A DNA stretch of 64,000 nucleotides, taken from Chloroflexi bacterium bin125. GTDB taxonomy: Bacteria > Chloroflexota > Dehalococcoidia > Bin125. Positions 5,325-62,894 of the stretch are shown here, piece after piece. The notes under the pieces were generated by a model. The model ran no database searches. It was not told the DNA's origin and saw only the letters and a program-made list of their open reading frames with translations. Positions within the stretch are counted from its first letter, which is position 1. Each line of letters begins with the position of its first letter. The position numbers and the translations under genes were made by a program. The stretch is from assembly GCA_002239025.1 (NCBI GenBank), contig MPNM01000001.1, positions 383,026-447,025 of the forward strand, read 5' to 3'.

Positions 5325-6131
5325 ATGGCTACTCCAGATCGATTTCGGCTCGACGGACAGGTCGTCCTGCTCACCGGAGCGGGACGCGGCCTCGGTCGTG
5401 CGATGGCCATGTCCTTCGCTGACGCGGGCGCAAAGGTCTCCGGCGCTTCGCGCACCTTGTCGCAGCTCGAGGAGACGGCTGAGCTGGTCACTGAACGCGG
5501 CGGCGAGGCCATTTCAATCTCGACCGATGTCACCGATGCCGCCGCGGTCGAGGCGATGGTTCAGCAGACGATTGACCACTTTGGACGCGTCGATGTTCTC
5601 ATCAACAACGCCGGCGGCGGCGCCGAAGGTGATGGTTCGCCACTCACAGATCTGACCGATGAACAGTGGCGCTGGGGCATCGACATGAACCTCACGTCGC
5701 AGATGCTCTGCGCTCGCGCGGTCTTGCCGCACATGGCCGAGCGAGGCTCGGGCGTGATCATTAACGTGGCCAGCGGCTTCGGCCTGCGCGGTGGTCGCGA
5801 CAATTGGATGTATGTCTCGGCCAAGGCCGGTGTCGTCAACCTCACCCGCTCATTGGCTGTGACCTATGGCCCCGCCGGAGTACGGACCAACTGCATTGCC
5901 CCCGGCATCTTCCCCCACACACCCCAGGCATTGGAACGTTGGCGTGGAGGACGGTACATCCCAATCGGCCGCGCTGGAGTCGCCTGGGAGATGGGACCGC
6001 TGGCTGTGTTCCTGTCTTCCGATGCTGCGGCCGGAATCAGCGGCGAGACGATCGCGCAGGACGGCGGCGGACTGGCGGCAATCGGCCCAACCGGCTGGGC
6101 GCCTCGCATTCGCCTGACCGAGCCGACCTGA
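5325..6131 (+). CDS. Short-chain dehydrogenase/reductase with intact catalytic residues (SDR A2)
   Basis: 268 residues from the ATG at 5325; the frame is open further upstream, but that overlaps the crotonase coding region. All SDR hallmarks are present: TGAGRGLG (17-24), NNAG (94-97), MN (121-122), Ser150, Tyr163 and Lys167. The residue after the second cofactor strand is Ser (GASRT), which leaves NADP or NAD open. It ends with the same PTGW tail as A1. An ordinary 3-hydroxyacyl or alcohol dehydrogenase activity is expected, plausibly after the crotonase step. B2 follows 11 bp later. Confidence 0.92.
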   Translation: MATPDRFRLDGQVVLLTGAGRGLGRAMAMSFADAGAKVSGASRTLSQLEETAELVTERGGEAISISTDVTDAAAVEAMVQQTIDHFGRVDVLINNAGGGAEGDGSPLTDLTDEQWRWGIDMNLTSQMLCARAVLPHMAERGSGVIINVASGFGLRGGRDNWMYVSAKAGVVNLTRSLAVTYGPAGVRTNCIAPGIFPHTPQALERWRGGRYIPIGRAGVAWEMGPLAVFLSSDAAAGISGETIAQDGGGLAAIGPTGWAPRIRLTEPT

Positions 6132-6142
6132 GGGAGGCTGCG

Positions 6143-6949
6143 ATGTCTGATTTCGTCCCAACTCCCAATCCCGAGCAACCGGAAGATCCGTTCCTGCTCA
6201 AAGGTCGCGTCGCCCTGGTGGTCGGTGCCGGCGATCCTCTCGGCCGAGCCGCGGCCGTCTCCCTGGCCGAGGCGGGCGCAGATGTCGCCGTGGCGTCTCT
6301 GCGCGCTGGGCCTCAGGAAGTGGTTCGGGTCAACTCAGTCGCCAACGAGATCTGGTCGCTGGGACGGGGCAACACGGCCATCACGCTAGATGCGACCGAT
6401 GAGAACAGCGTCGATTCCGCCATTGCTCGAACGATCTCAGAGCTCGGTCGCCTCGACATTCTGGTCAATGCCGCCGATCTGCCGGTGGCCGCTCCGATCG
6501 ACGAGCTATCCCCCGATGACTGGCATGCCATTCTGGCTGCCAACCTTCTGGCGCCGGCATTGACGTCGCGTGCCGCTGCCCGAGTGATGAAGATGAACGG
6601 CTACGGGCGAATCGTCAATCTCGTCTCCGTACTGGCCGCTCGAGGAGTGGCAAACACCTCAGCCTACGCAGCAGCTCATGCAGGAGTGCTGGCCATGTCA
6701 CGGTCGTTGTCTCAGGAATGGGCGCGCTCCGGTATCACGGTCAACGTGCTACAAGTCGGCATCTACGAGGGACAACGAGGCTTCGGCGACAATCCGGAGT
6801 CGGTGCAGCAGGTCGCTCGGATGCTGCCAGCAAAGCAACTGGTTCAGCCCAACGATGTCGGTCCCGCAGTGGTCGCCATGGCTGCCGATTCAGGCTTCAT
6901 CACCGGAGAGACGATCGCCGTCGACGGCGCCGCAACTGCCCGCGTCTGA
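6143..6949 (+). CDS. Short-chain dehydrogenase homolog lacking the catalytic lysine (SDR B2)
   Basis: 268 residues; the start at 6143 is set by an AGGGAGG ribosome site at 6131-6137. The glycine motif is present (VGAGDPLG, 27-34), but the NNAG motif is NAAD (109-112) and the YxxxK lysine is His179 (YAAAH). The leader carries NPEQP as in B1. It is better preserved than B1, and cofactor binding is likely. Its position directly behind the intact A2 repeats the A1-B1 arrangement, which supports an SDR pair acting as a heteromer. The lysine-to-histidine change makes independent catalysis uncertain. Confidence 0.87.
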   Translation: MSDFVPTPNPEQPEDPFLLKGRVALVVGAGDPLGRAAAVSLAEAGADVAVASLRAGPQEVVRVNSVANEIWSLGRGNTAITLDATDENSVDSAIARTISELGRLDILVNAADLPVAAPIDELSPDDWHAILAANLLAPALTSRAAARVMKMNGYGRIVNLVSVLAARGVANTSAYAAAHAGVLAMSRSLSQEWARSGITVNVLQVGIYEGQRGFGDNPESVQQVARMLPAKQLVQPNDVGPAVVAMAADSGFITGETIAVDGAATARV

Positions 6950-6952
6950 TCC

Positions 6953-7939
6953 CTATCCGCTCGCAACCAGAGCCAGGGTCGCCGCCTCGATCCTCGCCCG
7001 TTCAGGAATGCATTCCAACCACCGATCCGGAATCGCCGAAACTTCGTAGCGTGCTCCGAGTACGGCCCCGGCGACAGCGGCATTGGTGTCGGTGTCCCCA
7101 CCTGCGCTGCCGATCCGGACGAGCGCGTCTTCGAGGTTGTCCTCGGTGTCCAGACACCACATGGCCGCTTGCATGCAGAGGTAGGTGTGACCGCTCACCC
7201 GCTCCTCGGCGATGCGTTGGTCGACGGCCTTGGGTATGGCTAGCGCCCAGGCGATCAGTTCCGCAGGTGCGCCATCCAGGCTGGCTGCAAGGATCAGGTC
7301 TTCGCGATTCGGACTCTGGCCACGCAGCAACATGGCGATGGCTGCATTGACCACGATACAGGACCACTGCGCACCTGGCGCGAAATGAGTCACCGCGCAG
7401 CTCGCGGCAGTCTCTGCAATCAGCCGCTCTGGATCGTAGGCAAACTTGAGCGCGACCGGAGCGCAACGCATCAGCGCGCCGTTGGGCTGGGTTTCGGGAC
7501 TGCCACGCTCCTGCCAGAACGCTTTCGCCGCGCCTGGTACGCCAAATCCGACTTCGAGATAGTCAATGACCGTTGATGTCATGATCCCGATACCGCGCCC
7601 ATTCTCTCTGCGCCATCGAACCAACCGGTCAGCCAGGCCGGCAATCGGGTCTGCATCGTGAGCGAGCGCTTCGGCAAGATCGACGGCCTGGGCAAGATCA
7701 TCGTCCATTGGACGATCGCGTTCACGGGGATCGATCTCAGTAACGCCGTTAGGGAACGCGCCACGAACTGACTCCTGGCTCGCGCCTTCGATGGGCAGGC
7801 CCAGCAGATTGCCGACAGCCAGCCCGAGCAACACACCGCGGGCTCTGTCCGCGTCCAGCGGCACCGGGTGCGCTGAACCGATCAGCTCTACGAGGTGCGG
7901 CGCCTGACGGATAATCCCGGGGTCGTCGATCGTTGACAT
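6953..7939 (-). CDS. ADP-ribosylglycohydrolase family protein
   Basis: 328 residues from the ATG at 7939; a GTG two codons earlier is possible. The family signature is visible at both ends: an N-terminal GVLLGLAVGNLLGLPIE, then MDDD, which supplies metal-binding acidic residues, and a late GGDTDTNAAV loop that completes the binuclear Mg site. Such enzymes remove ADP-ribose from arginine or other residues (DraG) or hydrolyse related nucleotides. It is convergent with SDR B2, 3 bp away. The Fic gene lies 2.6 kb away; Fic transfers AMP, not ADP-ribose, so I do not infer a functional pair. Confidence 0.88.
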   Translation of the reverse strand: MSTIDDPGIIRQAPHLVELIGSAHPVPLDADRARGVLLGLAVGNLLGLPIEGASQESVRGAFPNGVTEIDPRERDRPMDDDLAQAVDLAEALAHDADPIAGLADRLVRWRRENGRGIGIMTSTVIDYLEVGFGVPGAAKAFWQERGSPETQPNGALMRCAPVALKFAYDPERLIAETAASCAVTHFAPGAQWSCIVVNAAIAMLLRGQSPNREDLILAASLDGAPAELIAWALAIPKAVDQRIAEERVSGHTYLCMQAAMWCLDTEDNLEDALVRIGSAGGDTDTNAAVAGAVLGARYEVSAIPDRWLECIPERARIEAATLALVASG

Positions 7940-8026: not shown

Positions 8027-9457
8027 ATGACCCTGCCAAATGACGCCTGGGGACTGCCCCTGACGACCTCCGATGAAGCGGCTGAAGCGTATCGCGACGG
8101 AGTCGACCGGATGTTGTCGTATTCACTGGGCGTCGATGCGGCACTGGAGCGTGCGATTGAACTCGACCCGGAGTTTGCGCTGGCCCATTCGCAGTTGGGA
8201 CTCTTCCACCTGTTTCGCGGGAACGGCAAACGGGCGGCGGAACTGGCTAATCGGGCGGCAGAGCTTGCAGAACGAACCACTGCTCGCGAACAGCGGCATG
8301 CGGCCATTCTCGGCGCGGCCGCGCGCGGCAAGGCCTCCGACGCGCCGGCCCTGATCGCCGAACACCTTGACGACACTCCACGCGACGCCCCCATCGTGCT
8401 GCAGTGGCTGGGAGGCAACTTCTACGGCGGCGGAGTGGAGAAGCGTGAGCGCATGCTGGAGAAGTTCGACAGCCTGGCGCCGTCCTATGGCGAGGACTGG
8501 TGGTTCCTGAGCTGGCACGCCTTTGCCAACCACGAGATGGACCAACTGGAAACCGCCCGACGCCTGGTCGAGCGTTCACTCGATTTGCGGACAGCCAATG
8601 GACAGGCGGCGCACGCGATGTCGCATGTGTTCTTCGAGGAACACGATCTCACGGGCGGCTCCGACTTCCTCGGCGGATGGCTGACCGACAATCCCGATCG
8701 AGCCGGATTCTTCCGCCATCTGACCTGGCATCAGGCGCTGTTTCTGCTCGCGAACGGTCGCCGGTCCGACGCGCTCGCCTTGCAAGAAGAGACCATCCGC
8801 CCCGGTGCCGATGAGCATGGCGATGCGCTGGGCGAAGTCGCCGATGGCGCGTCCCTCTTGTGGCGCTGCCGTCTGCATGACAGCGTCGCCGGCAACGGGT
8901 CCGACGAATTCGACTGGCGAGCAATCGCCGATGTGGCCGACAAGGCCTTCCCGCGCGCCGGCACCGCCTGGGTTGACGTACACCGAGCCATGGCCCTGGC
9001 CGCACTCGGTGACGAGGTTGGGCTGGGCAAGTTGCTCGACGGCCTGCGTGAGGCAGAAGAGCGCGGCCATCCGACGGCAGGCACGGTTGTCGCTCCGGTG
9101 GTCGAAGCGCTGTCCGCTTTCGGACAGGGCGACTTTGAGTCCGCGGCGAACGGTCTCGCCGAAGTGCGCGGGTTGTTGGTCACGCTGGGTGGATCGAACG
9201 CCCAACGCGACGTGTTTGAAGAGACGCTGGTTGAGGCGCGCCTGCGAGCCGGTCAGATCGAGCAGGCGCTGGAACTGCTGCGAGAGCGGCTCGATCGAGG
9301 CGCGACCGCACGGGACCTGTTCCGCTGGGGTCGCGCTCAATCGGCGCTGGGAGAAATGACCGAGGCCAAAGCGTCGTTCCGTCGCGCTGCCAAGCTGTGG
9401 GCCGACGCCGATCGCGATGCGCCTGAGTTGCAGGCGCTTCGGGAGGCTGCCGCATGA
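8027..9457 (+). CDS. TTC38-type tetratricopeptide repeat protein
   Basis: 476 residues from the ATG at 8027, preceded by GAGGAGCT at a normal distance. The N-terminus DAWGLPLTTSDEAA followed by a repeat-type helix pair (ALERAIELDPEFALAH) matches the TTC38 family, all-helical soluble proteins of unknown biochemical role. Further TPR-like pairs are visible around residues 200-290 and in the last 100 residues (ALELLRERL, ASFRRAAKLW). No signal peptide or membrane helix is seen. The last four bases overlap the ClpS-like gene, implying coupled expression and perhaps a scaffold role in a proteolysis pathway (inference). Confidence 0.85.
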   Translation: MTLPNDAWGLPLTTSDEAAEAYRDGVDRMLSYSLGVDAALERAIELDPEFALAHSQLGLFHLFRGNGKRAAELANRAAELAERTTAREQRHAAILGAAARGKASDAPALIAEHLDDTPRDAPIVLQWLGGNFYGGGVEKRERMLEKFDSLAPSYGEDWWFLSWHAFANHEMDQLETARRLVERSLDLRTANGQAAHAMSHVFFEEHDLTGGSDFLGGWLTDNPDRAGFFRHLTWHQALFLLANGRRSDALALQEETIRPGADEHGDALGEVADGASLLWRCRLHDSVAGNGSDEFDWRAIADVADKAFPRAGTAWVDVHRAMALAALGDEVGLGKLLDGLREAEERGHPTAGTVVAPVVEALSAFGQGDFESAANGLAEVRGLLVTLGGSNAQRDVFEETLVEARLRAGQIEQALELLRERLDRGATARDLFRWGRAQSALGEMTEAKASFRRAAKLWADADRDAPELQALREAAA

Positions 9458-9798
9458 CCTCCCAGCCGTCTCTGCCGCGACCGGATGTCATCGTTGAGGA
9501 CGATGTCGACGCCGAGCGTGGCAGCGAGCTGGAAAAGCGGTTTCACCTCTTCCTGCATGACTCCGACGACCACACCTATGAGTACGTGATCGAGATGCTT
9601 GGGGCGGTGTTCGGCTATTCGAAGGAGAAGGCGTTCGCCATCGCCTCAATGATTGACGGGCAAGGTCGAGGCATCGTCGAGACAGCGGACTACGAGACGG
9701 TCAGGAAGCATCAAGATCAGATCCACGGCTGGGGTCCCGATCCACGCATCCCACACTGTTCCGGATCGCTCTCGGCAACCATCGAGGAAGCACCCTGA
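9454..9798 (+). CDS. clpS: ClpS-like Clp protease adaptor with altered N-degron pocket
   Basis: 114 residues. The ClpS fold is evident: FHLFLHDSDDHTYEYVIEML (30-49), then FGYSKEKAF and a C-terminal beta strand ending SATIEEA. Canonical ClpS proteins bind the alpha-amino group of N-degron substrates with an Asn-Asp pair and a His. Here the Asn is His35 (followed by Asp36) and the His position in the VHxxG motif is Asp68 (MIDGQG). Ligand choice may therefore differ from leucine/phenylalanine N-degrons. The gene overlaps the TTC38 gene by ATGA. No clpA or clpC lies in the window. Confidence 0.82.
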   Translation: MTSQPSLPRPDVIVEDDVDAERGSELEKRFHLFLHDSDDHTYEYVIEMLGAVFGYSKEKAFAIASMIDGQGRGIVETADYETVRKHQDQIHGWGPDPRIPHCSGSLSATIEEAP

Positions 9799-10000
9799 CC
9801 ATCGGTCCTCTTCCGTCATATCCGTGCTTGGCGCGGATATCTCGCCGCCTCGAGTACTGACGTTGGCGCCGAGCTCCGCGAGATTGCGTCTACGTGACGC
9901 GGCAGTGACGGATTCTTGGTTCTCGCAATTGCTCAAGCAGTCAGGACTGCAGCAATCAACGGACGATTGCCTCTAGCATCCGATCCAGTGGAGGTTCACG
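9799..10000. other. Intergenic spacer with a weak hairpin
   Basis: 202 bp between the ClpS-like gene and the first selenoprotein gene. A 7-bp inverted repeat (ATATCCG 9818-9824, CGGATAT 9834-9840) could end transcription, though no T-run follows. A GGAGG ribosome site lies just before the next ATG. The promoter of the selenoprotein pair is presumably here, but I cannot pick -35/-10 boxes with confidence. Confidence 0.4.
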
Positions 10001-11326
10001 ATGGTCCGCCTGAGCGATCTACACCCCGAAGAGGCTGAGCATATGCTCCAGCGTGCCGAGGGCTTGCGGCGGCGGGAGTTTGATTTCGATGCCACGTCCT
10101 GGATCACTCCGGCACCCCTGGCCGAGTCAACAATCGCTCTGATCACGACCGCCGCATTGCATCGCCGCGACGACATTCCCTTTCGCTTTGCCGATACTGG
10201 TTTCCGGCAGATACCCGACGACATCGATCGCAACGACCTGGTCCAGTCGCACATCAGCGTCAACTTCGACCGCACGCACTACCAACGCGACCTGAACGTC
10301 GTCTTGCCCCTCGATCGGATGCATGAGCTTGCCGACGCCGGCGAAATCGATGGCGTCTCTCCAATGCACTTCTCCATCCTTGGGGCGACCGACGCATTCA
10401 TGCTCGAGCCGTCTGCAGCGGAGATGGCTGAACGGATGCACAATCTGGGCGTCAACACGGCGCTGCTGGTTCCTGTTTGACCGGTCTGCACGGCCGCCGT
10501 CGGCGTCCTTTCACATTTCCTCCAGCGACGCGGCATCGCGACGACTAGTATCAGCTTGATTCGCGAACAGTCCGAAGCCGTGCGCCCGCCGCGAGCACTA
10601 TGGGTGCCCTTCCCGCTGGGACGACCACTCGGAGTAGCCGACAATCCCGACTTCCAGCGGGATGTACTGCGCAGTGCGCTGGAACTGCTGGAATCCGCCA
10701 CTGAACCGACCATCGTTGACTACCCGCACGAGGCGCCGGAGGGCGAGGGCGTCTGGGCCTGCGCCATTGAACTGCCGACGCCGGAAGTCAGCGAACTCGA
10801 AGCGTCGCTACGCCGAGAGATCGATTTGCTCATGCCCCGCTACGAGGAAGCGCGCCGACGCCGCGGCAGGACGACACTCGGGATGAGTGGCGCGAAACCT
10901 GAGGAGATTGACGCAGTGGTCTCGTTTGCTATTGCGGTCGCCGAGGGCTCCGGCTTCGAGGAGATTCCGAAGTCCGCGAGCGGGCCGGAGTGGATCCATC
11001 CGATGCCGATGTTGGTCCGCTTTGTGGTCGAGGACCTGCGAGCCTTCTACCAGGAGTCCGTGGCCTCGGACAACGGCGCTGCACCTCCATCCCAGCACGA
11101 CATGCACGCCTGGATCTTCGAACAGACCGCGCTTGGACGCCTGATCAAGCAGATCGCGCAGTTGATCAGCGACGATCACGATCCCCGTCTGCTCTTTGTG
11201 CGAGGGTTGCTCATCCCGGAAGGTTTCTGGGAAGGCGGACCAACCTTCGGCGGCCCGCCCCCCGGCGAGGATCCCCGCGAGTTCCTGATCCGCAGCCGAC
11301 GCTATCTTCGGGGTCAAGAAGCGTGA
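10001..11326 (+). CDS. PrdB/GrdB-like selenoprotein, copy 1 (in-frame UGA read as selenocysteine)
   Basis: The frame from 10001 meets TGA at 10478-10480 and continues open in the same frame to 11326, giving 441 residues with U160. Flanking residues are LLVPV-U-PVC, a UxxC redox centre. The sequence before it (ALITTAALHRRDD, then RQIPDDID, RDLNVVLPLDR, LGVNTALL) and after it (GIATTSISLI, PPRALWVPFPLG) follows selenoprotein B of proline/glycine reductases. Residues after about 245 form an extra domain (two-helix stretch SELEASLRREIDLLMP, later VVEDLRAFYQ and HDMHAWIFEQ) not found in PrdB. A hairpin starts 12 nt after the UGA. No PrdA/GrdE-type partner lies nearby, so the substrate is unknown. 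A second copy follows 54 bp later. Automatic annotation would split this gene at the UGA. Confidence 0.87.
10492..10508 (+). promoter_or_regulatory. Candidate bacterial SECIS hairpin, copy 1
   Basis: Arms GGCCGCC and GGCGTCC enclose a three-base loop GTC (10499-10501); six of seven pairs form, with one C-U mismatch. The loop begins 19 nt after the UGA, within the range used by SelB-read bacterial SECIS elements, whose loops carry a G-U. The same loop at the same distance occurs in copy 2. Confidence 0.65.
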
Positions 11327-11380: not shown

Positions 11381-12718
11381 ATGGTTCGTCTTGATGATCT
11401 GCACCCAGAGGAAGCGCATCACATGCGCAACATGGGCAAGCGCTTCGACCAGATGCCGCTCGACTCCACGCCGTTTGTAACGCCGCCGCCCCTGGCAGAG
11501 TCCACGGTCGCCCTGATCACGTCCGCTGGGCTGCATCGTCGCGACGACCGGCCGTTTCGCTTCGCCGATCAGGGCTATCGCGTCATCCCCAGCGACATCG
11601 ATCCCGCCGACCTCGTCCAAACCCAGGTCAGCGTCAACTTCGATCGCACTCACTACCAGCGCGACGTCAACGTAGTGCTACCGATTGATCGGCTTCGAGA
11701 ATTGGCCGACGCAGGAGAAATCGGGGCAGTGTCCGTGTATCACTACTCGGTCCTGGGCTCGAACCCCAATCCGGCATTGATGAAGGACGCGGCCGCCGAC
11801 CTGGCGCAACGTCTACACGACTCCGGTGTGCATTGCGCGATGCTGACACCCGTTTGACCGGCCTGCACGGGTACCGTCGGTACCCTCGCGCACTTCCTTG
11901 AAGAGGGCGGCATCGCCACCACCGGCATCAGTCTGATCCGCGAGCACACTGAAGTAGTCAACCCTCCGCGAGCGCTCTGGGTCCCGTTCCCGCTCGGGCG
12001 GCCCCTGGGCATTGCCGACGATGCTGAGTTCCAGACCGATGTCCTGCGCAGCGCTCTGCGACTGCTTGAGACAGCCACAGAACCAACAATCGAGGACTAC
12101 CCGCACGATGCGCCCGACGGCAACGGCGACGGCGTTTGGGCCTGCTCCATCGCCTTGCCCGAACCAGATGTCAGCGACCTGGAAGCCGGCCTGCGCCGCG
12201 AGGTGGACCTGCTCATTCCCTGGTACGAGGAGACGCGCCGCCGTCGAGGCAGGACCACCGTCGGCATGAGTGGAGCCACTCCAGATCAGATCGACAATCT
12301 GGTCTCCTTCGTCGTCGCCGGCGCCGAAGGCGCGGGGTTCGCCGAGGTCCCAGAAGCTGCCTCAGGTCCGACCTGGCGACACGCCATGCCCATGCTGCTG
12401 CGATTCGTGGTCGAGGACCTGCGCGCCTTCTATCAGGAGGCAGTTACGTCGAGACCCGGTACCTGGGCTCCTTCTCAACACGACATGCACACCTGGATCT
12501 TCGAACAGACCGCCTTCGGACGCGCCCTGCTCCAGATCGGTCATCAAATCGCAGCCGTAGGTGATCCGCCGCTGCTGATGATGCGTGGCTTCATGATCCC
12601 CGAGGGCTTCTGGGTCGAAGGTCCAACCTGGGGTCAACAGACCACCAACGTCGGCGGTCCCGAGTGGATTCGCCAGGCACAGGAATACCTGACCGGTGAG
12701 CCAACCGAGACTCGCTGA
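11381..12718 (+). CDS. PrdB/GrdB-like selenoprotein, copy 2 (in-frame UGA read as selenocysteine)
   Basis: Paralog of the preceding gene. TGA at 11855-11857 is in frame with sense codons to 12718, giving 445 residues with U159 in MLTPV-U-PAC. Conserved blocks are the same: MVRLDDLHPEEA at the start, ALITSAGLHRRDDRPFRFAD, RVIPSDID, RDVNVVLPIDRLRELAD, then after the Sec GIATTGISLIREH, PPRALWVPFPLGRPLG and a C-terminal domain with VVEDLRAFYQEAV and HDMHTWIFEQTAFGR. A GAGGGA ribosome site precedes the ATG. The two copies differ at many positions yet keep the UGA, the Cys three residues later and the hairpin, which argues against a sequencing error or pseudogene. Function is unknown; a thiol- or selenol-based reductase is likely. 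Confidence 0.87.
11869..11885 (+). promoter_or_regulatory. Candidate bacterial SECIS hairpin, copy 2
   Basis: A perfect 7-bp stem, GGGTACC / GGTACCC, closes the loop GTC (11876-11878). The loop starts 19 nt after the UGA, as in copy 1. Two stem pairs that are G-C and C-G in copy 1 are A-T and T-A here, a compensatory change made although the encoded residues differ. Confidence 0.72.
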
Positions 12719-12775: not shown

Positions 12776-14974
12776 GTGGCCGTGACTGAGCCAGATCGTC
12801 TGCTCTGCGCGCTCAAGGAGCATTACGGATACGAGTCGTTTCGTCCGCAACAGCGCGAGACGATTGAGCATGTGCTCTCGGGTGGCGATGCGCTTGTGCT
12901 GATGCCCACGGGCGGCGGCAAATCGCTCTGTTACCAGCTCCCGGCAATTCTCTCCGATGGACTGACCGTCGTGGTGTCGCCGCTGATTGCGTTGATGCAC
13001 GATCAGGTGCAGGCACTACAACGTGCCGGCGCGAAAGCGCAGTACTTGAACAGCACGATGTCGCCGATGGAGAGCTCGCAGGTCGAGCGGATGGTTGCCG
13101 ATGGTTCTGTCCAGTTGCTCTACGTCGCGCCGGAACGCGTCAACACCGACCGCTTCCGAGGCCTACTGGAGCGGCGCAATCCCAGCCTGATTGCGATCGA
13201 TGAAGCACATTGCATCTCGGAATGGGGTCACGAGTTCCGCCCCGACTACCGAGTCCTGCGCCGGTTGACTGAGCGGTTTGTCGATGTGCCAACCGTCGCC
13301 TGTACGGCGACCGCAACGCCGCAGGTCCAGCGCGACATCGTCGATCAACTCGATCGTCCGCGCATGGAGACGTTCATCACAGGGTTCATGCGCGAGAATC
13401 TGACGCTGCGCGTCGTTCCCAAGCGCAAAGCGCTGGATCGACTGGTCGGACGTCTGCAGCAGACGCCGGGCGAGGCGGCGATCGTCTACAGCCAGTCGCG
13501 CAACAGCACCGAAGAGAACGCCGCACAGTTTCGTCGCTATGGCATCAAAGCCGAGCACTACCACGGCGCAATGACAGGCGACGCCCGGCATGGTGTGCAG
13601 GACCGATTCCTGAGCGGCGAGACGCCCGTGATCTGCGCCACGATCGCCTTCGGCATGGGCATCGACAAGCCAGACATCCGGCTCGTCGCTCACCTCGACA
13701 TGCCGTCTTCGATTGAGTCCTACTACCAGGAGACCGGTCGCGCCGGTCGCGACGGCGAGCCGGCTGAATGCTTGATGTTCTACACGAAGGGCGTCTGGCA
13801 TCAGCAGATGTTCTTCATCAACCAACTTACCGACGACGCAGAACGGCAGCAGCGCATCAAACGGCTGCGGACGATGATGAACTTCAGCGAGCAATCGCAG
13901 TGCCGCTGGTCGAGAATCCTGCAGTACTTCGGAGAACAGCCTGCCTCGGCACAGTGCGGACACTGCGACAACTGTTTAGGTGAAACGGCTGACGACGTGA
14001 TTGCAGACACTCCACAGGCTGTCGACTCCGACGATCATCCGCCTCCGCCAGGACGCAACGAGCTGCGACCGCTGAGCGAATCCGAAGATGAATTGTACGA
14101 AGCGCTGAGGCAGACTCGCGCCCGATTGGCCAGGGACGAGGGCGTGTCGGCTTACGTCGTTGCCGGCAACAAAGACCTGGCCGCCCTGGCGAGAGCACGC
14201 CCGAGCAACCTGCGCGAACTGAAGCAGGTGAAAGGATTCGGCTCACGTAGAGCCGGGAAGTACGGCGAGGATCTGCTGGAAGTGATTGCGCAATTCATGG
14301 ATGAACGAGTGCACGACGGCCCCAATGACTCCCTATCGCCGCAGATGCAGATGCCAGCCGGTGACGGGTCCAGCGGAAACGAAGAGCCGCCGGAACAGTG
14401 GCAGCAACGATTTAACGCGCTCGCCACCTGGCGCTCAATCACGAGCGCCAAGGAAGAATTCGATCCATCCAGCCTGCTGACATTTCCCGCCATGCGACAA
14501 ATCGCTGAGTCGCCACCCAGTTCTGTCGAAGAGCTGGCCGCAGTAGAGGGCGTCGGGTCGCTCGCCATCGAGCGTTTCGCCGATCAACTCACAGCCATCC
14601 TGGGGATCGGGCAGGCTAAGCCGGCTCCTCCGGTGGCCGAACCTCTCACACAATCGGAACCTGTTCAGAGTTGGCTGACCACGCTCGAGCTCTACCAGTC
14701 GGGACACACTGTGCTTGCAATCGCCGAGCGCCGGATGCTGTCGCCCGCGACGATTGCCTCACACCTGACCACCGCAATGCGAAATGGGCGCCAGGTTGAT
14801 CTCACCCCGGCCTTGCCCCCGGTCGAGCAGATTCAAGAAGTGCGCCGCCAGTTGTCGAAGGATCCTGACGCCAGCACGGTTGTGATTCACGAACGAATCG
14901 AACACCGGCTCTCGCGGGCGGAGCTGCAACTGGTCATCGCCCATTTGAGGCCGCCGGAGGCCTTCAAGGACTAA
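12776..14974 (+). CDS. recQ: ATP-dependent DNA helicase RecQ
   Basis: 732 residues from GTG 12776; GTG 12782 fits the AGGGG ribosome site better. It unwinds 3'-to-5' in recombinational repair. Walker A PTGGGKS (44-50), DEAH box IDEAHCISEWGHEF, QETGRAGRDG of motif VI, and the four-cysteine zinc subdomain (QC, then CGHCDNC) are all present. The winged-helix RQC domain of E. coli RecQ is not recognisable: an acidic linker leads straight to a first HRDC domain (about 440-505). A second HRDC-like block (about 545-615) and a helix-turn-helix region (about 640-690) follow. It is convergent with lhr. Confidence 0.95.
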   Translation: MAVTEPDRLLCALKEHYGYESFRPQQRETIEHVLSGGDALVLMPTGGGKSLCYQLPAILSDGLTVVVSPLIALMHDQVQALQRAGAKAQYLNSTMSPMESSQVERMVADGSVQLLYVAPERVNTDRFRGLLERRNPSLIAIDEAHCISEWGHEFRPDYRVLRRLTERFVDVPTVACTATATPQVQRDIVDQLDRPRMETFITGFMRENLTLRVVPKRKALDRLVGRLQQTPGEAAIVYSQSRNSTEENAAQFRRYGIKAEHYHGAMTGDARHGVQDRFLSGETPVICATIAFGMGIDKPDIRLVAHLDMPSSIESYYQETGRAGRDGEPAECLMFYTKGVWHQQMFFINQLTDDAERQQRIKRLRTMMNFSEQSQCRWSRILQYFGEQPASAQCGHCDNCLGETADDVIADTPQAVDSDDHPPPPGRNELRPLSESEDELYEALRQTRARLARDEGVSAYVVAGNKDLAALARARPSNLRELKQVKGFGSRRAGKYGEDLLEVIAQFMDERVHDGPNDSLSPQMQMPAGDGSSGNEEPPEQWQQRFNALATWRSITSAKEEFDPSSLLTFPAMRQIAESPPSSVEELAAVEGVGSLAIERFADQLTAILGIGQAKPAPPVAEPLTQSEPVQSWLTTLELYQSGHTVLAIAERRMLSPATIASHLTTAMRNGRQVDLTPALPPVEQIQEVRRQLSKDPDASTVVIHERIEHRLSRAELQLVIAHLRPPEAFKD

Positions 14975-58560: not shown

Positions 58561-59847
58561 CTAGTCCGCCAGATCGAGATGGGCTCGACGCCAACCGATC
58601 CAGAACAGTAAGCCGCCGCCAACCAGCAGTCCGAATGCCAGAGTGAAGCCGGCGCGGAAATCGAAGACGTCCACCAGAACTGAGGAAGAACCAATCACGA
58701 TGGTGATCATCACGGCAGTGAGTAGCGAGAAGATGGAGAGCACTGTCGCCCGCTGGTCGGAGGGGATGCGTCGGTTGATGTAGCCGCCAGCGATCGGTTG
58801 CACGGCCGCTGTGCAGGCGGCCAGAAGCGCAAATGAGGCGACGATGGCGAGATGGTCGGCGACGAGCAAGGGTAAGAAGACCAAGACGCCGACTACTAGT
58901 ACCGCTGGCAACGCCCGGCGTTCCCCGAGCCGCGCGGCCAGCGGAGCGGCAACAATGGCCCCGAGCATCAAACCGACGAACGACGGCAGCATGAAACCGG
59001 AGTAGGTCAGACCCTCGATCAACGTGATGGCAGGATCCACGCCGTGCGAACGGACAAAGGGTTGGATGAAGAACTCGGGGAGATCGAGCGTGGCGAGCAT
59101 GACGCCACCAAAGAGGATCGCCCAGAGTACGGGGCGGGTTCGCAGGGCGATCCTCAATCCAGTGCGGATCTCGCTGAGGACTGCAGTGCCGGAGACGTGC
59201 GATGCAGATTGCTCATTCGTGTCGATGGTCGTGTCGCTGAATTCCGATTCGCGTCGCGGCGGTTCACGCAGCGCCAACGCGAGCATGCCGGCCAATCCCA
59301 TTCCCGCTGCGCTGATGATGATCACAGTGCGGAAGTCGAGCACCGAGACCAGGGGACCAGCAAGGATTGTGGCAGCCAGCAAGGAAGCGGTCGCCACAGC
59401 GCTGGCTCGACCGGCGTGGCGCTCGTACTCGTCAGTGCGCTTGAGTTGTCTGAGGCTGTCGTAGAGCAACGCGTCGTCGGAGCCGGACATGAGGGTTCGG
59501 GTGATCGACATGAACAGGTGGCCGAGGATCAGGCTGGGGAAGTTGAGCGTGGCAAAGAGCACCGTCGCTCCGGCAAAGCCCAGCGCTCCTATGCCCAGGG
59601 CCACCCGGCGACCAAAGCGATCGGCGATCGCGCCGGTCGGAACCTCCGCCATGATGGTCGCGATCCCGAAGAGGACTTCCATGAAGCCAATCTGGACATA
59701 AGACAATCCATGCTGGGTTTGCAGGAAGAGAAACCAAATGGGCAGCCAGAAGTGAAATCCGCGAACGAACTGGAAGCTGTAGTAGATCGGAATGTTGCGC
59801 GCGAATGGACTGCGAGCCGACACGCCGTCCGTCGGCGAGCTACTCAT
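58561..59847 (-). CDS. MFS transporter, tandem copy 1
   Basis: 428 residues with twelve membrane segments. The motif A after helix 2 is GAIADRFGRRVALG, typical of drug/H+ antiporters and multidrug exporters. The N-terminus reads SPFARNIPIYYSFQFVRGF, shared with copies 2 and 3, and the family ending is WRRAHLDLAD. Its start overlaps the stop of copy 2 by four bases. It likely exports a hydrophobic compound; substrate unknown. Confidence 0.9.
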   Translation of the reverse strand: MSSSPTDGVSARSPFARNIPIYYSFQFVRGFHFWLPIWFLFLQTQHGLSYVQIGFMEVLFGIATIMAEVPTGAIADRFGRRVALGIGALGFAGATVLFATLNFPSLILGHLFMSITRTLMSGSDDALLYDSLRQLKRTDEYERHAGRASAVATASLLAATILAGPLVSVLDFRTVIIISAAGMGLAGMLALALREPPRRESEFSDTTIDTNEQSASHVSGTAVLSEIRTGLRIALRTRPVLWAILFGGVMLATLDLPEFFIQPFVRSHGVDPAITLIEGLTYSGFMLPSFVGLMLGAIVAAPLAARLGERRALPAVLVVGVLVFLPLLVADHLAIVASFALLAACTAAVQPIAGGYINRRIPSDQRATVLSIFSLLTAVMITIVIGSSSVLVDVFDFRAGFTLAFGLLVGGGLLFWIGWRRAHLDLAD

Positions 59848-61316
59848 GCCCGATCGTTAGGTTCCGACATCGGAGCGGTCAGCGCTGATTCCGGAGAGAC
59901 ACCATTGGTGTGAGCCACCCGGCCGTCTGTTCCGTTTCCATTCGCGCCGTTTGACCAATTGACGGCGAGGTCGGCGGGAACCGCTCGGCCGACATCGGCC
60001 TGGGGTGCCGGACGGATGCTGATTCGACGCAACGTGTCTGCCTGATCACGGCGATGAGAACGCCGCCATGCAATCCAGAATCCGACGCCTACCGTCAGTA
60101 CGACGCCAACCGAGAGTCCGTAGGCGAAGCGGAAGTCGATGCTATCTGCGGACGCAGAGATTGCTGGCACAATCAGGGCCATTTGGGCGGCCATCATCAA
60201 CTCAAAGATCGACAAGACAGTGGCTCGCTGGTCAGAGCGGATGCGCCGGTTGATATAACCGGTGGCGATCGGCCGAATCGCAGCGTGGATGCCGCCCAGA
60301 ATCGCGATCGGCGCGATGATGCTGATGTGGTCGAAGAGCAGCAAGGGAATGAAGAGGAATGCGCCACCGATCATCAGGATCGGGATCGCCCGGCGTTCCC
60401 CCACGCGGGCAACGAACGGAGCGGCCAGCAACGAGCCAGCGGACATGGCGGCGAAGCCCGGAATAATCAATCCGCTCCAGACCGCGCCGTCCAACAGTCC
60501 TCCTGATGGGCTGAGACCGTGATGCCGGAGGAACGGCTGCACGAAGAAGTTGGGCATCTCGTAGGCCACCGTCACAACACCGGCCAACAGGATGATCCAC
60601 AGCACCGGCTTTTGACGTATGACGATTCGGAAGCCATTGAGGATGTAGCTGACAATGCCTTGCGGCGAACGGTCGTCGGCGGATGCATCGACCGCTGAAA
60701 CCGGAGCGGCGTGCAGTCCGTCGTCGCCGAACTCTGCTTCGGTCCGCGGCGGCTCACGTAGCAGGAGCGCGACGAATCCGGCCAGGGCCATCGTTCCGGC
60801 ACCGATCAGGAAGACGGCTTCAAGGCCCCAGAGGCCGGCCATCGGACCGCCGAACAGCGCCGCGCCGAGCAGTGCGCCGGTCATCATCGCTTCCGAGCGG
60901 CCCATGTGCTTCTCGTACTCGCGACTGCGGCCCAGCGTGCGCAGGGTGTCGAACAGCAACGCGTGTCCCGAGCCGGAGTAAAGGGTCATTGATACGGCCA
61001 TGACCACATAGCTCAACGCGAGACCAACGAATCCATCGGCCATGACGAACAGGAACGTTCCGCCCGTGAACATGAAGCCGCCCAGCGCCAACGAGGTGCG
61101 GCGCCCCCAACGGTCGGCGATCGCGCCGGTCGGAACTTCGGCGACGAACATCGAGACCCAGAAGACGGCCTCCATCAGCCCGACCTGGGTCAGCGACAGA
61201 CCGCGTTCGTCCTGAAGGAAAATGATCCAGACGGGCACCCAGATCAGGAATCCAGTGGCGAACTGAAACAGGTAGTAGATCGGGATGTTTCGCGCGAAGC
61301 GTTCAGTCTGAATCAT
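59844..61316 (-). CDS. MFS transporter, tandem copy 2
   Basis: 490 residues, twelve membrane segments. It shares with copy 1 and 3 the opening RFARNIPIYYLFQFATGF, motif A GAIADRWGRRTSLA and the late INRRIRSDQRATVLS helix linker. A 60-residue polar C-terminal tail rich in Asn, Pro and Gly replaces the short tail of copy 1. It is coupled with copy 1 by a four-base overlap. Confidence 0.9.
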   Translation of the reverse strand: MIQTERFARNIPIYYLFQFATGFLIWVPVWIIFLQDERGLSLTQVGLMEAVFWVSMFVAEVPTGAIADRWGRRTSLALGGFMFTGGTFLFVMADGFVGLALSYVVMAVSMTLYSGSGHALLFDTLRTLGRSREYEKHMGRSEAMMTGALLGAALFGGPMAGLWGLEAVFLIGAGTMALAGFVALLLREPPRTEAEFGDDGLHAAPVSAVDASADDRSPQGIVSYILNGFRIVIRQKPVLWIILLAGVVTVAYEMPNFFVQPFLRHHGLSPSGGLLDGAVWSGLIIPGFAAMSAGSLLAAPFVARVGERRAIPILMIGGAFLFIPLLLFDHISIIAPIAILGGIHAAIRPIATGYINRRIRSDQRATVLSIFELMMAAQMALIVPAISASADSIDFRFAYGLSVGVVLTVGVGFWIAWRRSHRRDQADTLRRISIRPAPQADVGRAVPADLAVNWSNGANGNGTDGRVAHTNGVSPESALTAPMSEPNDRA

Positions 61317-61396
61317 CGGCAGGCGCGTGCAGAGTACCGGTCATCGTTGGCAATGCAGTAGAGCGTAGGGAGTTGGGACGAAGCTGGATTGGCCCG

Positions 61397-62860
61397 TCAG
61401 TCAAGGTTCTGCACATTGCGGTACAGAGCGGAGCCCTCGCCGCCTTGGCCATTCTGATTTGACGTCGGTTGTCGCTGAAGCGCCTGCGGTTTCGCGACCG
61501 TCAGCGACCACTGACGAATGCGTTCCGCCTGATCGCGGCGATGGGCGAATCGCCAACATAGCCAGAGCACCACGCCGAGCGTGACGACCACGAGCAGGTC
61601 GAGGCCAAAGGCAAATGGGAACGAGAAGAAGTCTGCTGCCGGCAGAATCGCAATCATCACGATGCTCATCGCGATCCCATGGACCAGCGAGAAGATGGAC
61701 AAGACGGTGGCACGTTGATCAGAGTTGATGCGTCGATTGATGTAGCCGAAGGCGATCGGCCGAATCGCGGCCTGGGCAATGCTGACCATAAAGATCGCGC
61801 CCAGCAGTCCCAGATGATTCCAGATCGCCAGCGGAATCATGAACAGAGCGCCAAACGCGAGAAGCGTAGGGAATGTCCGCCGCTCTCCCAGCGAGCCGAT
61901 CAATCTTGCTGCGGCCATCATGCCCAGCATCGTTCCCAGGTAGCCGGGGATCAGCAACGCCGACCAGATGATTCCGTCGGTCACACCGGCGAGCGGGTCG
62001 AGACCGTGCTGAGCCACATACGGCTGGGACAGGAAGCGAGGTACGTCGAACAGTGAGATCAGGATGGCGGCAAAGGGCACCAGGAAGCGAACCGGCCGAT
62101 TGTTCCAGACGATTCGGAATCCCTCGATCATTTCATGCAGGACCGGCAGTCCAGCACTCGTCCGAGTCCCGGTTCGACCTTGATGGGCAAGGTCGGCAGC
62201 GGTATGGCGCACAGCTGAGGGCGGGGCATGGAGGGGATCGGGTGGGAAATAAGATTCACGCCGAGGCGGCTCTCGCAGCAGCAATGCCATTGTTGCCGAG
62301 ACCAAGAAGATGCCCGCGGAGATGAGAATGGTGGCCGAGTAGCCGAGAAAGTACGCAGCCGGGCCGCCAATCGCGGTCGCCAGGACCATCATGGCCCAGA
62401 ACAGTCCATGCGACCGGCCTGCGTGTCGTTCATATTCGCCGGTGCGACCGATGACTCGCAGCGTGTCGTACAACAAGGCATCGCCAGCGCCCGAGTAGAG
62501 CGTCATCGCGACACCCATGACGAGATACGAGCCCAGCAGGATCGAGAAGGAGTCGGCCATGGCGAAGATGACCGTCGAAACAGCAAACAAGATTGCGCCG
62601 AGCGCCAGCGAGATGCGCCGCCCGAATCGGTCCGCGATTGCACCGGTCGGTACCTCGCCGATGATGATCGTGAGCCAGAAGAACGATTCGAAGATGCCGA
62701 CCTCGGTGAGCGAGAGGCCGCGTCCATCCATCAGGTAGATGATCCAGACCGGCAAGAAGATCATGAACCCGGTCGAGGCCATGAACAGGTAGTAGACCCG
62801 GATATTGCGTTGGAAGCGACGGGGATCGTACTTCGGCGGTGCGGTGGAGAGGGCAGTCAT
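61397..62860 (-). CDS. MFS transporter, tandem copy 3
   Basis: 487 residues from ATG 62860. It has the same family marks: FQRNIRVYYLFMASTGF, GAIADRFGRRISLA and INRRINSDQRATVLS. A 40-residue Gln/Asn-rich tail ends the protein. It lies 80 bp upstream of copy 2 on the same strand, and behind rsmG. Three neighbouring paralogs point to repeated tandem duplication of one exporter. Confidence 0.9.
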   Translation of the reverse strand: MTALSTAPPKYDPRRFQRNIRVYYLFMASTGFMIFLPVWIIYLMDGRGLSLTEVGIFESFFWLTIIIGEVPTGAIADRFGRRISLALGAILFAVSTVIFAMADSFSILLGSYLVMGVAMTLYSGAGDALLYDTLRVIGRTGEYERHAGRSHGLFWAMMVLATAIGGPAAYFLGYSATILISAGIFLVSATMALLLREPPRRESYFPPDPLHAPPSAVRHTAADLAHQGRTGTRTSAGLPVLHEMIEGFRIVWNNRPVRFLVPFAAILISLFDVPRFLSQPYVAQHGLDPLAGVTDGIIWSALLIPGYLGTMLGMMAAARLIGSLGERRTFPTLLAFGALFMIPLAIWNHLGLLGAIFMVSIAQAAIRPIAFGYINRRINSDQRATVLSIFSLVHGIAMSIVMIAILPAADFFSFPFAFGLDLLVVVTLGVVLWLCWRFAHRRDQAERIRQWSLTVAKPQALQRQPTSNQNGQGGEGSALYRNVQNLD

Positions 62861-62894
62861 GCCCACTCAGGGTACGGCTAACGCCTGGGACGAT

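Follow-up and report, generated by a model that had tools for sequence, protein, structure and literature searches.

The apparently broken gene at positions 10001-11326 of the window, the 64,000-nucleotide stretch of Chloroflexota DNA analysed here, is almost certainly, as judged from its sequence, one selenoprotein gene of 441 residues whose internal stop is read as selenocysteine (Sec). The selenoprotein reading is correct and of a known kind; the new element is a two-domain, all-Sec, multi-copy subfamily. The locus defines a separate PrdB-like subfamily, with an added domain, five copies in one genome and Sec in every member seen. The identity assigned to the gene, leaving its predicted reaction aside, is held with high confidence. 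Ordinary ORF calling breaks every copy at the UGA, so that the added domain is overlooked or turned into a false separate gene. The features of the locus are as follows.

9990-9994, plus strand: ribosome-binding site GGAGG, read off the sequence, 6 nt ahead of the ATG at 10001.
10001-11326, plus strand: predicted selenoprotein gene, copy 1; 441 residues with U160 and C163; ATG at 10001, stop TGA at 11324-11326.
10112-10705, plus strand: PrdB/GrdB-type core domain, residues ~38-235; TIGR04483 E 4.5e-26, hhalign to true PrdB 99.9%.
10478-10480, plus strand: UGA predicted to encode selenocysteine 160; TGA in 5/5 paralogues and 78/78 homologues, TGC in Cys forms.
10487-10489, plus strand: Cys163, second residue of the UxxC centre, found in 78/78 homologues.
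10492-10508, plus strand: putative SECIS hairpin of copy 1; arms 10492-10498 and 10502-10508, loop 10499-10501, 6/7 pairs.
10712-11323, plus strand: C-terminal helical domain, residues ~238-441; invariant C254, E273, G289, D345, Y350, W371 and T376.
11381-12718, plus strand: tandem paralogue, copy 2; 445 residues with U159; 54 bp past copy 1.
11855-11857, plus strand: UGA predicted to encode selenocysteine 159 of copy 2, at the same column as in the paralogues.
11869-11885, plus strand: putative SECIS hairpin of copy 2; arms 11869-11875 and 11879-11885, 7/7 pairs.

Without readthrough, copy 1 appears in a mechanical ORF list as two ORFs, one of 159 aa and one of 256 aa that starts from TTG 10556. 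The segment from the UGA at 10478 to this TTG encodes UPVCTAAVGVLSHFLQRRGIATTSIS, a peptide that is conserved in relatives, and the initial annotation was right to read PVC and family-like sequence there. In five comparisons (Nei-Gojobori) the dN/dS ratio ranges from 0.04 to 0.18 ahead of the UGA and from 0.07 to 0.18 behind it. GC3 does not differ between the two sides (0.74), and each of the two alternative frames past the UGA contains six stops. The genome carries five paralogues with one TGA apiece, all at one alignment column. Copy 2, absent from the initial annotation, is 64% identical to copy 1 across the UGA and probably lies in one operon with it.

The same codon recurs across a broad set of genomes. 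Matches were found in 33 of 61 relatives; those that cover the site have one TGA in almost every case. A scan of species genomes returned 59 loci from sponge- or sea-associated Chloroflexota/Dehalococcoidia, Acidimicrobiales and other Actinomycetota, Alpha- and Gammaproteobacteria, and Thermodesulfobacteriota. In all 78 distinct homologues the codon in this column is TGA, and Cys comes three residues later; this set was chosen by a U-x-x-C/U pattern, the locus searches that fed it ignored the Sec column, and the tblastn list prior to the pattern step had TGA in every gene. The homologue sets include close relatives and some same-genome copies from two collections. With the TGA column shared by paralogues and homologues and with low dN/dS, the UGA pattern is well beyond chance. 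Both the single 441-residue product, with TGA 10478-10480 in frame to 11326, and the U160/C163 UxxC centre, as put forward in the initial annotation, are thus borne out by these homologues, the five paralogues and dN/dS.

A hairpin lies just downstream of the UGA throughout the family, with arms at nt 15-21 and 25-31 counting from the T of TGA. Over 41 distinct sequences, identical ones having been taken out for the covariation counts, 84.3% of cells pair versus 61.4% when shuffled (0/500), and the covariation score is 0.579 versus 0.171 (0/500). Sliding the partner arm by 1-3 bases lowers pairing to 36-45%, and RNAalifold independently recovers five of the hairpin's pairs. Because the hairpin region is coding, a synonymous-recoding null built from each gene's own codons was also used: the 78 sequences form 5.92 of 7 pairs against an expected 3.95 +/- 0.12, with a maximum of 4.32 in 500 draws. 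The TGA forms of an added set gave 5.86 pairs versus 4.08 under this null, and the seven TGC forms 3.43 versus 3.21, with no clear excess. The G in the apical loop is invariant, and a G in a small apical loop is a feature of bacterial SECIS elements described in PMC1088965. An Rfam search of the locus returned nothing meaningful.

The machinery for decoding such a UGA is encoded in the same genome, a 66-contig draft that is 96.7% complete with 2.4% estimated contamination. The initial annotation had proposed looking there for selA, selB, selC (tRNA-Sec) and selD, and all four are present, each above its curated cut-off: tRNA-Sec at 66.4 bits, with anticodon tca by ARAGORN, SelB at 328 bits (cut-off 242), SelA at 516 bits (cut-off 268) and SelD at 351 bits (cut-off 125). 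These genes sit on contigs other than that of the window, and SelA was found in 14 of 14 same-genus relatives. The selD gene (G000:C5:154737-155678, locus L019) has one in-frame TGA, in a GGUG motif close to the N-terminus of its product, so SelD is probably itself a selenoprotein. One relative, G037 (95% complete), has TGA-type short PrdB-like genes but no SelA match, which may reflect a missing contig, a divergent SelA or a different Sec route.

These observations bear directly on two other readings of the interrupted frame. Truncation or decay of the gene, a fault in the assembly, or two separate genes, the first truly ending at 10478 and the second starting from TTG 10556, would explain why the mechanical list splits the frame at the UGA; yet the same TGA stands in all 78 homologues and all five paralogues, the conserved peptide spans the gap, purifying selection continues downstream, the SECIS hairpin covaries and the Sec machinery is present, and we regard such a break as very improbable. 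Reassignment of UGA to Trp or Gly in this genome would likewise account for an in-frame TGA that is read through, but it is scarcely credible, given that TGA terminates both copies and other genes of the window, that homologues with another codon align Cys and neither Trp nor Gly, and that the genome encodes a Sec tRNA with anticodon UCA.

When the search was widened to 400 genomes of the phylum, both TGA forms and stop-free forms were found. Five stop-free loci were examined; they and the Roseomonas and Haematobacter plasmid homologues have TGC as the codon. The clearest Sec/Cys pair sets TAGUPLCHRTVV against TAGCPLCHRTVV (TAG-U-PLCHRTVV versus TAG-C-PLCHRTVV). The alignment for Cys at the U position suggested by the initial annotation therefore yields TGC/Cys homologues among short relatives and plasmid forms, with none inside the two-domain clade, where 0 of 71 members have Cys and all 71 use Sec. 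By the tree, Cys arose several times among the short forms. SelA occurs in both TGA-form genomes checked for the bacterial family f66 and is missing from three stop-free-form genomes, in one of which (G279) the TGC was read directly; because other stop-free carriers possess SelA, the association of the Sec form with SelA is only partial. The use of Sec by every two-domain member seen suggests that selenium is essential to the predicted chemistry.

The N-terminal part of the protein resembles PrdB more closely than any other curated family. The best NCBIfam model is PrdB (TIGR04483; E 4.5e-26, residues 38-235, 91.8 bits versus a cut-off of 300), and scores of 91.8 and 106.2 bits both fall short of the curated cut-off. 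The next models, GrdF, GrdH and GrdB, are all far under theirs: TIGR01917, NF040794, NF040795 and the subfamily model TIGR01918 give 27.5-54.9 bits versus cut-offs of 65-800. The Pfam GRDB model (PF07355) gives 24.1 and 40.1 bits versus a gathering score of 22, which is just passed at 24.1. A genuine PrdB for comparison was Terrisporobacter petrolearius WP_083399465.1, encoded on a plasmid that also carries prdA. Its hhalign match spans 212 residues with a probability of 99.9%, and its U falls exactly in the column of U160, in agreement with the comparable Sec position that the initial annotation gave for PrdB. The residues held in common with PrdB extend beyond the UxxC to D97, P103, R106, E109-L110, G114, P197-R198, G207, G211 and Q219.

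The tree of 106 sequences places the two-domain forms in one supported group (100/97), in which the lone 'short' row, L037, is the same gene as L070 with a sequence that ends at the locus end. True PrdB, represented by a single sequence on a fairly long branch, falls elsewhere, among the short forms (100/90). PrdA gave no match in this genome (G000) or in seven relatives, while the control plasmid scored 976.5 bits; GrdA (GRDA, PF04723) gave no match in the genome in a search in which no control rang. By these comparisons the protein belongs to the PrdB/GrdB superfamily as a subfamily that is separate from true PrdB and has no PrdA. Of the proline/glycine reductase B type claimed at the outset, the superfamily assignment thus stands, with PrdB as best model and U160 aligned; PrdB or GrdB identity does not, the curated cut-offs being missed, and the type describes the core but not the C-terminal ~200 residues, a domain foreign to both PrdB and GrdB.

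In the predicted structure (whole model pLDDT 84, pTM 0.63) strands and helices alternate along the core, and Sec160 sits between the strand 153-157 and the helix 162-176, just ahead of the latter. Such a spot, at the end of a strand and before a helix, is where reactive thiols or selenols usually lie. The C-terminal domain, modelled alone, is predicted to form a compact helical bundle (pLDDT 86, pTM 0.80). No Pfam or NCBIfam model matches this domain in 29 members, and Foldseek returned nothing below E 3 for it, with a best second-look Z of 5.0 that lies within the noise of helical proteins. The sequences of solved structures yielded no convincing relative. The whole-model fold search gave a best Z of 7.5, to LacI-type repressors over residues 38-251. 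No fold relative is named here because the Z 7.5 and Z 5.0 matches resemble common arrangements. A fused piece of PrdA was also considered for the C-terminal domain, whose size presumably resembles that of the pyruvoyl-bearing PrdA fragment and whose invariant Cys254 also prompted the idea; it was rejected on sequence, with an hhalign probability to PrdA of 0.1%.

Comparison of gene neighbourhoods revealed no partner gene common to the loci and no pointer to a pathway. With no PrdA in the genome and no shared neighbour, the lack of a nearby partner proprotein or Stickland operon remarked on in the initial annotation holds, and its suggestion that the reaction is probably new for the family would fit the missing PrdA. 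The RecQ, ClpS and TPR-protein neighbours represent genus-level synteny only: a small ClpS-like gene lies just upstream of copy 1 (9454-9798), and its place and that of RecQ downstream (12776-14974) are kept in several close relatives. Genes of acyl-CoA metabolism recur beside some copies, in a pattern that is not constant. One paralogue group (L078, L079, L084 and L095, ~5938-7104) is found in several Chloroflexota between biotin-dependent carboxylase-like and acyl-CoA dehydrogenase-like genes, flanks that are a possible functional hint for that group. Near other PrdB-like selenoprotein genes lies an ORF (L073, 7404-9686) that we take to resemble an NDH-SelD fusion, and L102 and L105 carry members of the same ORF cluster in a like position. 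On the Roseomonas plasmid p546-2 (L139, 5869-8254) a Cys-form PrdB-like gene adjoins an annotated selO. Elsewhere in the window, three tandem MFS-like transporter genes on the minus strand (58561-62866) resemble local duplicates. A search of viral contigs found no relatives.

In the mechanism that we propose, SelB and tRNA-Sec would decode the UGA at 10478 at the SECIS hairpin just downstream, giving a PrdB/GrdB-type alpha/beta core, with Sec160-x-x-Cys163 at the N-terminal end of a helix, fused to the helical domain. The selenolate of Sec160 would act as nucleophile on a small-molecule substrate, and the Se-substrate or Se-S intermediate left on Sec160 would be resolved by Cys163, possibly also by C254, with electrons supplied by thioredoxin. 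The C-terminal domain may supply what the pyruvoyl partner contributes in D-proline reductase, either substrate binding or contacts between subunits, and the paralogues would differ in substrate. To a PrdB-like reductive cleavage of a small molecule we give a little less than an even chance; it is favoured because the residues in common with PrdB reach far past the UxxC and because a set of several paralogues would be in keeping with substrate specialisation, reported also for the grdB genes of Cloacibacillus (PMC10838667). The fuller picture is put forward tentatively, at somewhat below even probability: a partnerless, two-domain selenoenzyme of PrdB/GrdB type that cleaves carbon-heteroatom bonds, its C-terminal domain replacing the pyruvoyl partner, with substrate-specialised duplicates in sponge- and sea-associated Chloroflexota and also in Actinomycetota, Pseudomonadota and Thermodesulfobacteriota.

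Carbon-heteroatom cleavage may not be involved if the protein is instead a general thiol/selenol oxidoreductase, reducing peroxide, disulfide or selenium compounds. The UxxC motif at a helix N-end, the missing PrdA and operon partner, and very weak profile matches around the motif, to protein disulfide oxidoreductases (E 0.33) and to TIGR02187 in 4 of 29 members (best E 0.0066), all speak for such an activity, but the core fits PrdB/GrdB far better than any thioredoxin-fold family and its conserved residues in common with PrdB lie well past the UxxC, so that we consider it a real possibility that is clearly below even probability. That PrdB is the best curated model (E 4.5e-26) could also mean that the protein is a true subunit of D-proline or glycine reductase, with its partners encoded at some other place in the genome. 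This has very little likelihood, however: the score of 91.8 bits compares with a cut-off of 300, PrdA is missing from this genome and seven relatives although the control was found, and true PrdB branches elsewhere in the tree.

PrdB and GrdB belong to the textbook account of amino-acid fermentation by anaerobes. PrdB-type UxxC selenoproteins are on record as a family (PMC13188914), and two seawater surveys count PrdB-like proteins among the commonest selenoproteins there, with 42 PrdB sequences from the Sargasso Sea in 2005 (PMC1088965) and 235 Sec and 110 Cys forms in the GOS metagenomes in 2008 (PMC2398784). Our literature search for PrdB-like selenoproteins of Chloroflexi, or for ones lacking PrdA, found no description of the two-domain subfamily, and no role for PrdB-like selenoproteins outside Stickland fermenters. 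The marine proteins share with the present one the UxxC PrdB type and the existence of Cys homologues; in the accessible parts of both surveys they are listed by family only, with no C-terminal fusion, tandem or fivefold paralogy, or function named, and the domain fusions in the accessible part of PMC2398784 concern families other than PrdB.

Among characterised or annotated systems, GrdB, GrdF and GrdH (PF07355, TIGR01917/01918) share a homologous region around the Sec, although the match is confined to the C-terminal part of models of 431-435 positions, whereas the extra domain of the present protein is C-terminal and unrelated. Roseomonas WP_207415257.1 and Haematobacter WP_035710215.1, both named 'glycine/sarcosine/betaine reductase selenoprotein B family protein' by NCBI, are likewise stand-alone PrdB-like proteins with no Stickland operon, but have Cys for Sec, no excess SECIS pairing, ~305 residues and no matching C-terminal domain. 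FarB, a GrdB-like subunit proposed for fluoroacetate reduction in Cloacibacillus (PMC10838667), offers a parallel as a GrdB-type selenoprotein for another substrate with many paralogues in one genome; it is encoded with FarE and other operon genes, in contrast to the present gene, which stands without such a partner. PrdB itself has ~241 residues, the motif UGTC and a gene encoded with PrdA, while the present protein has the motif UPxC, an extra C-terminal domain of ~200 residues, no PrdA and a score below the curated one. The two nevertheless share a homologous core of ~212 residues at 29% identity, with Sec at the identical column and Cys at +3, and PrdB too has a hairpin downstream of its UGA.
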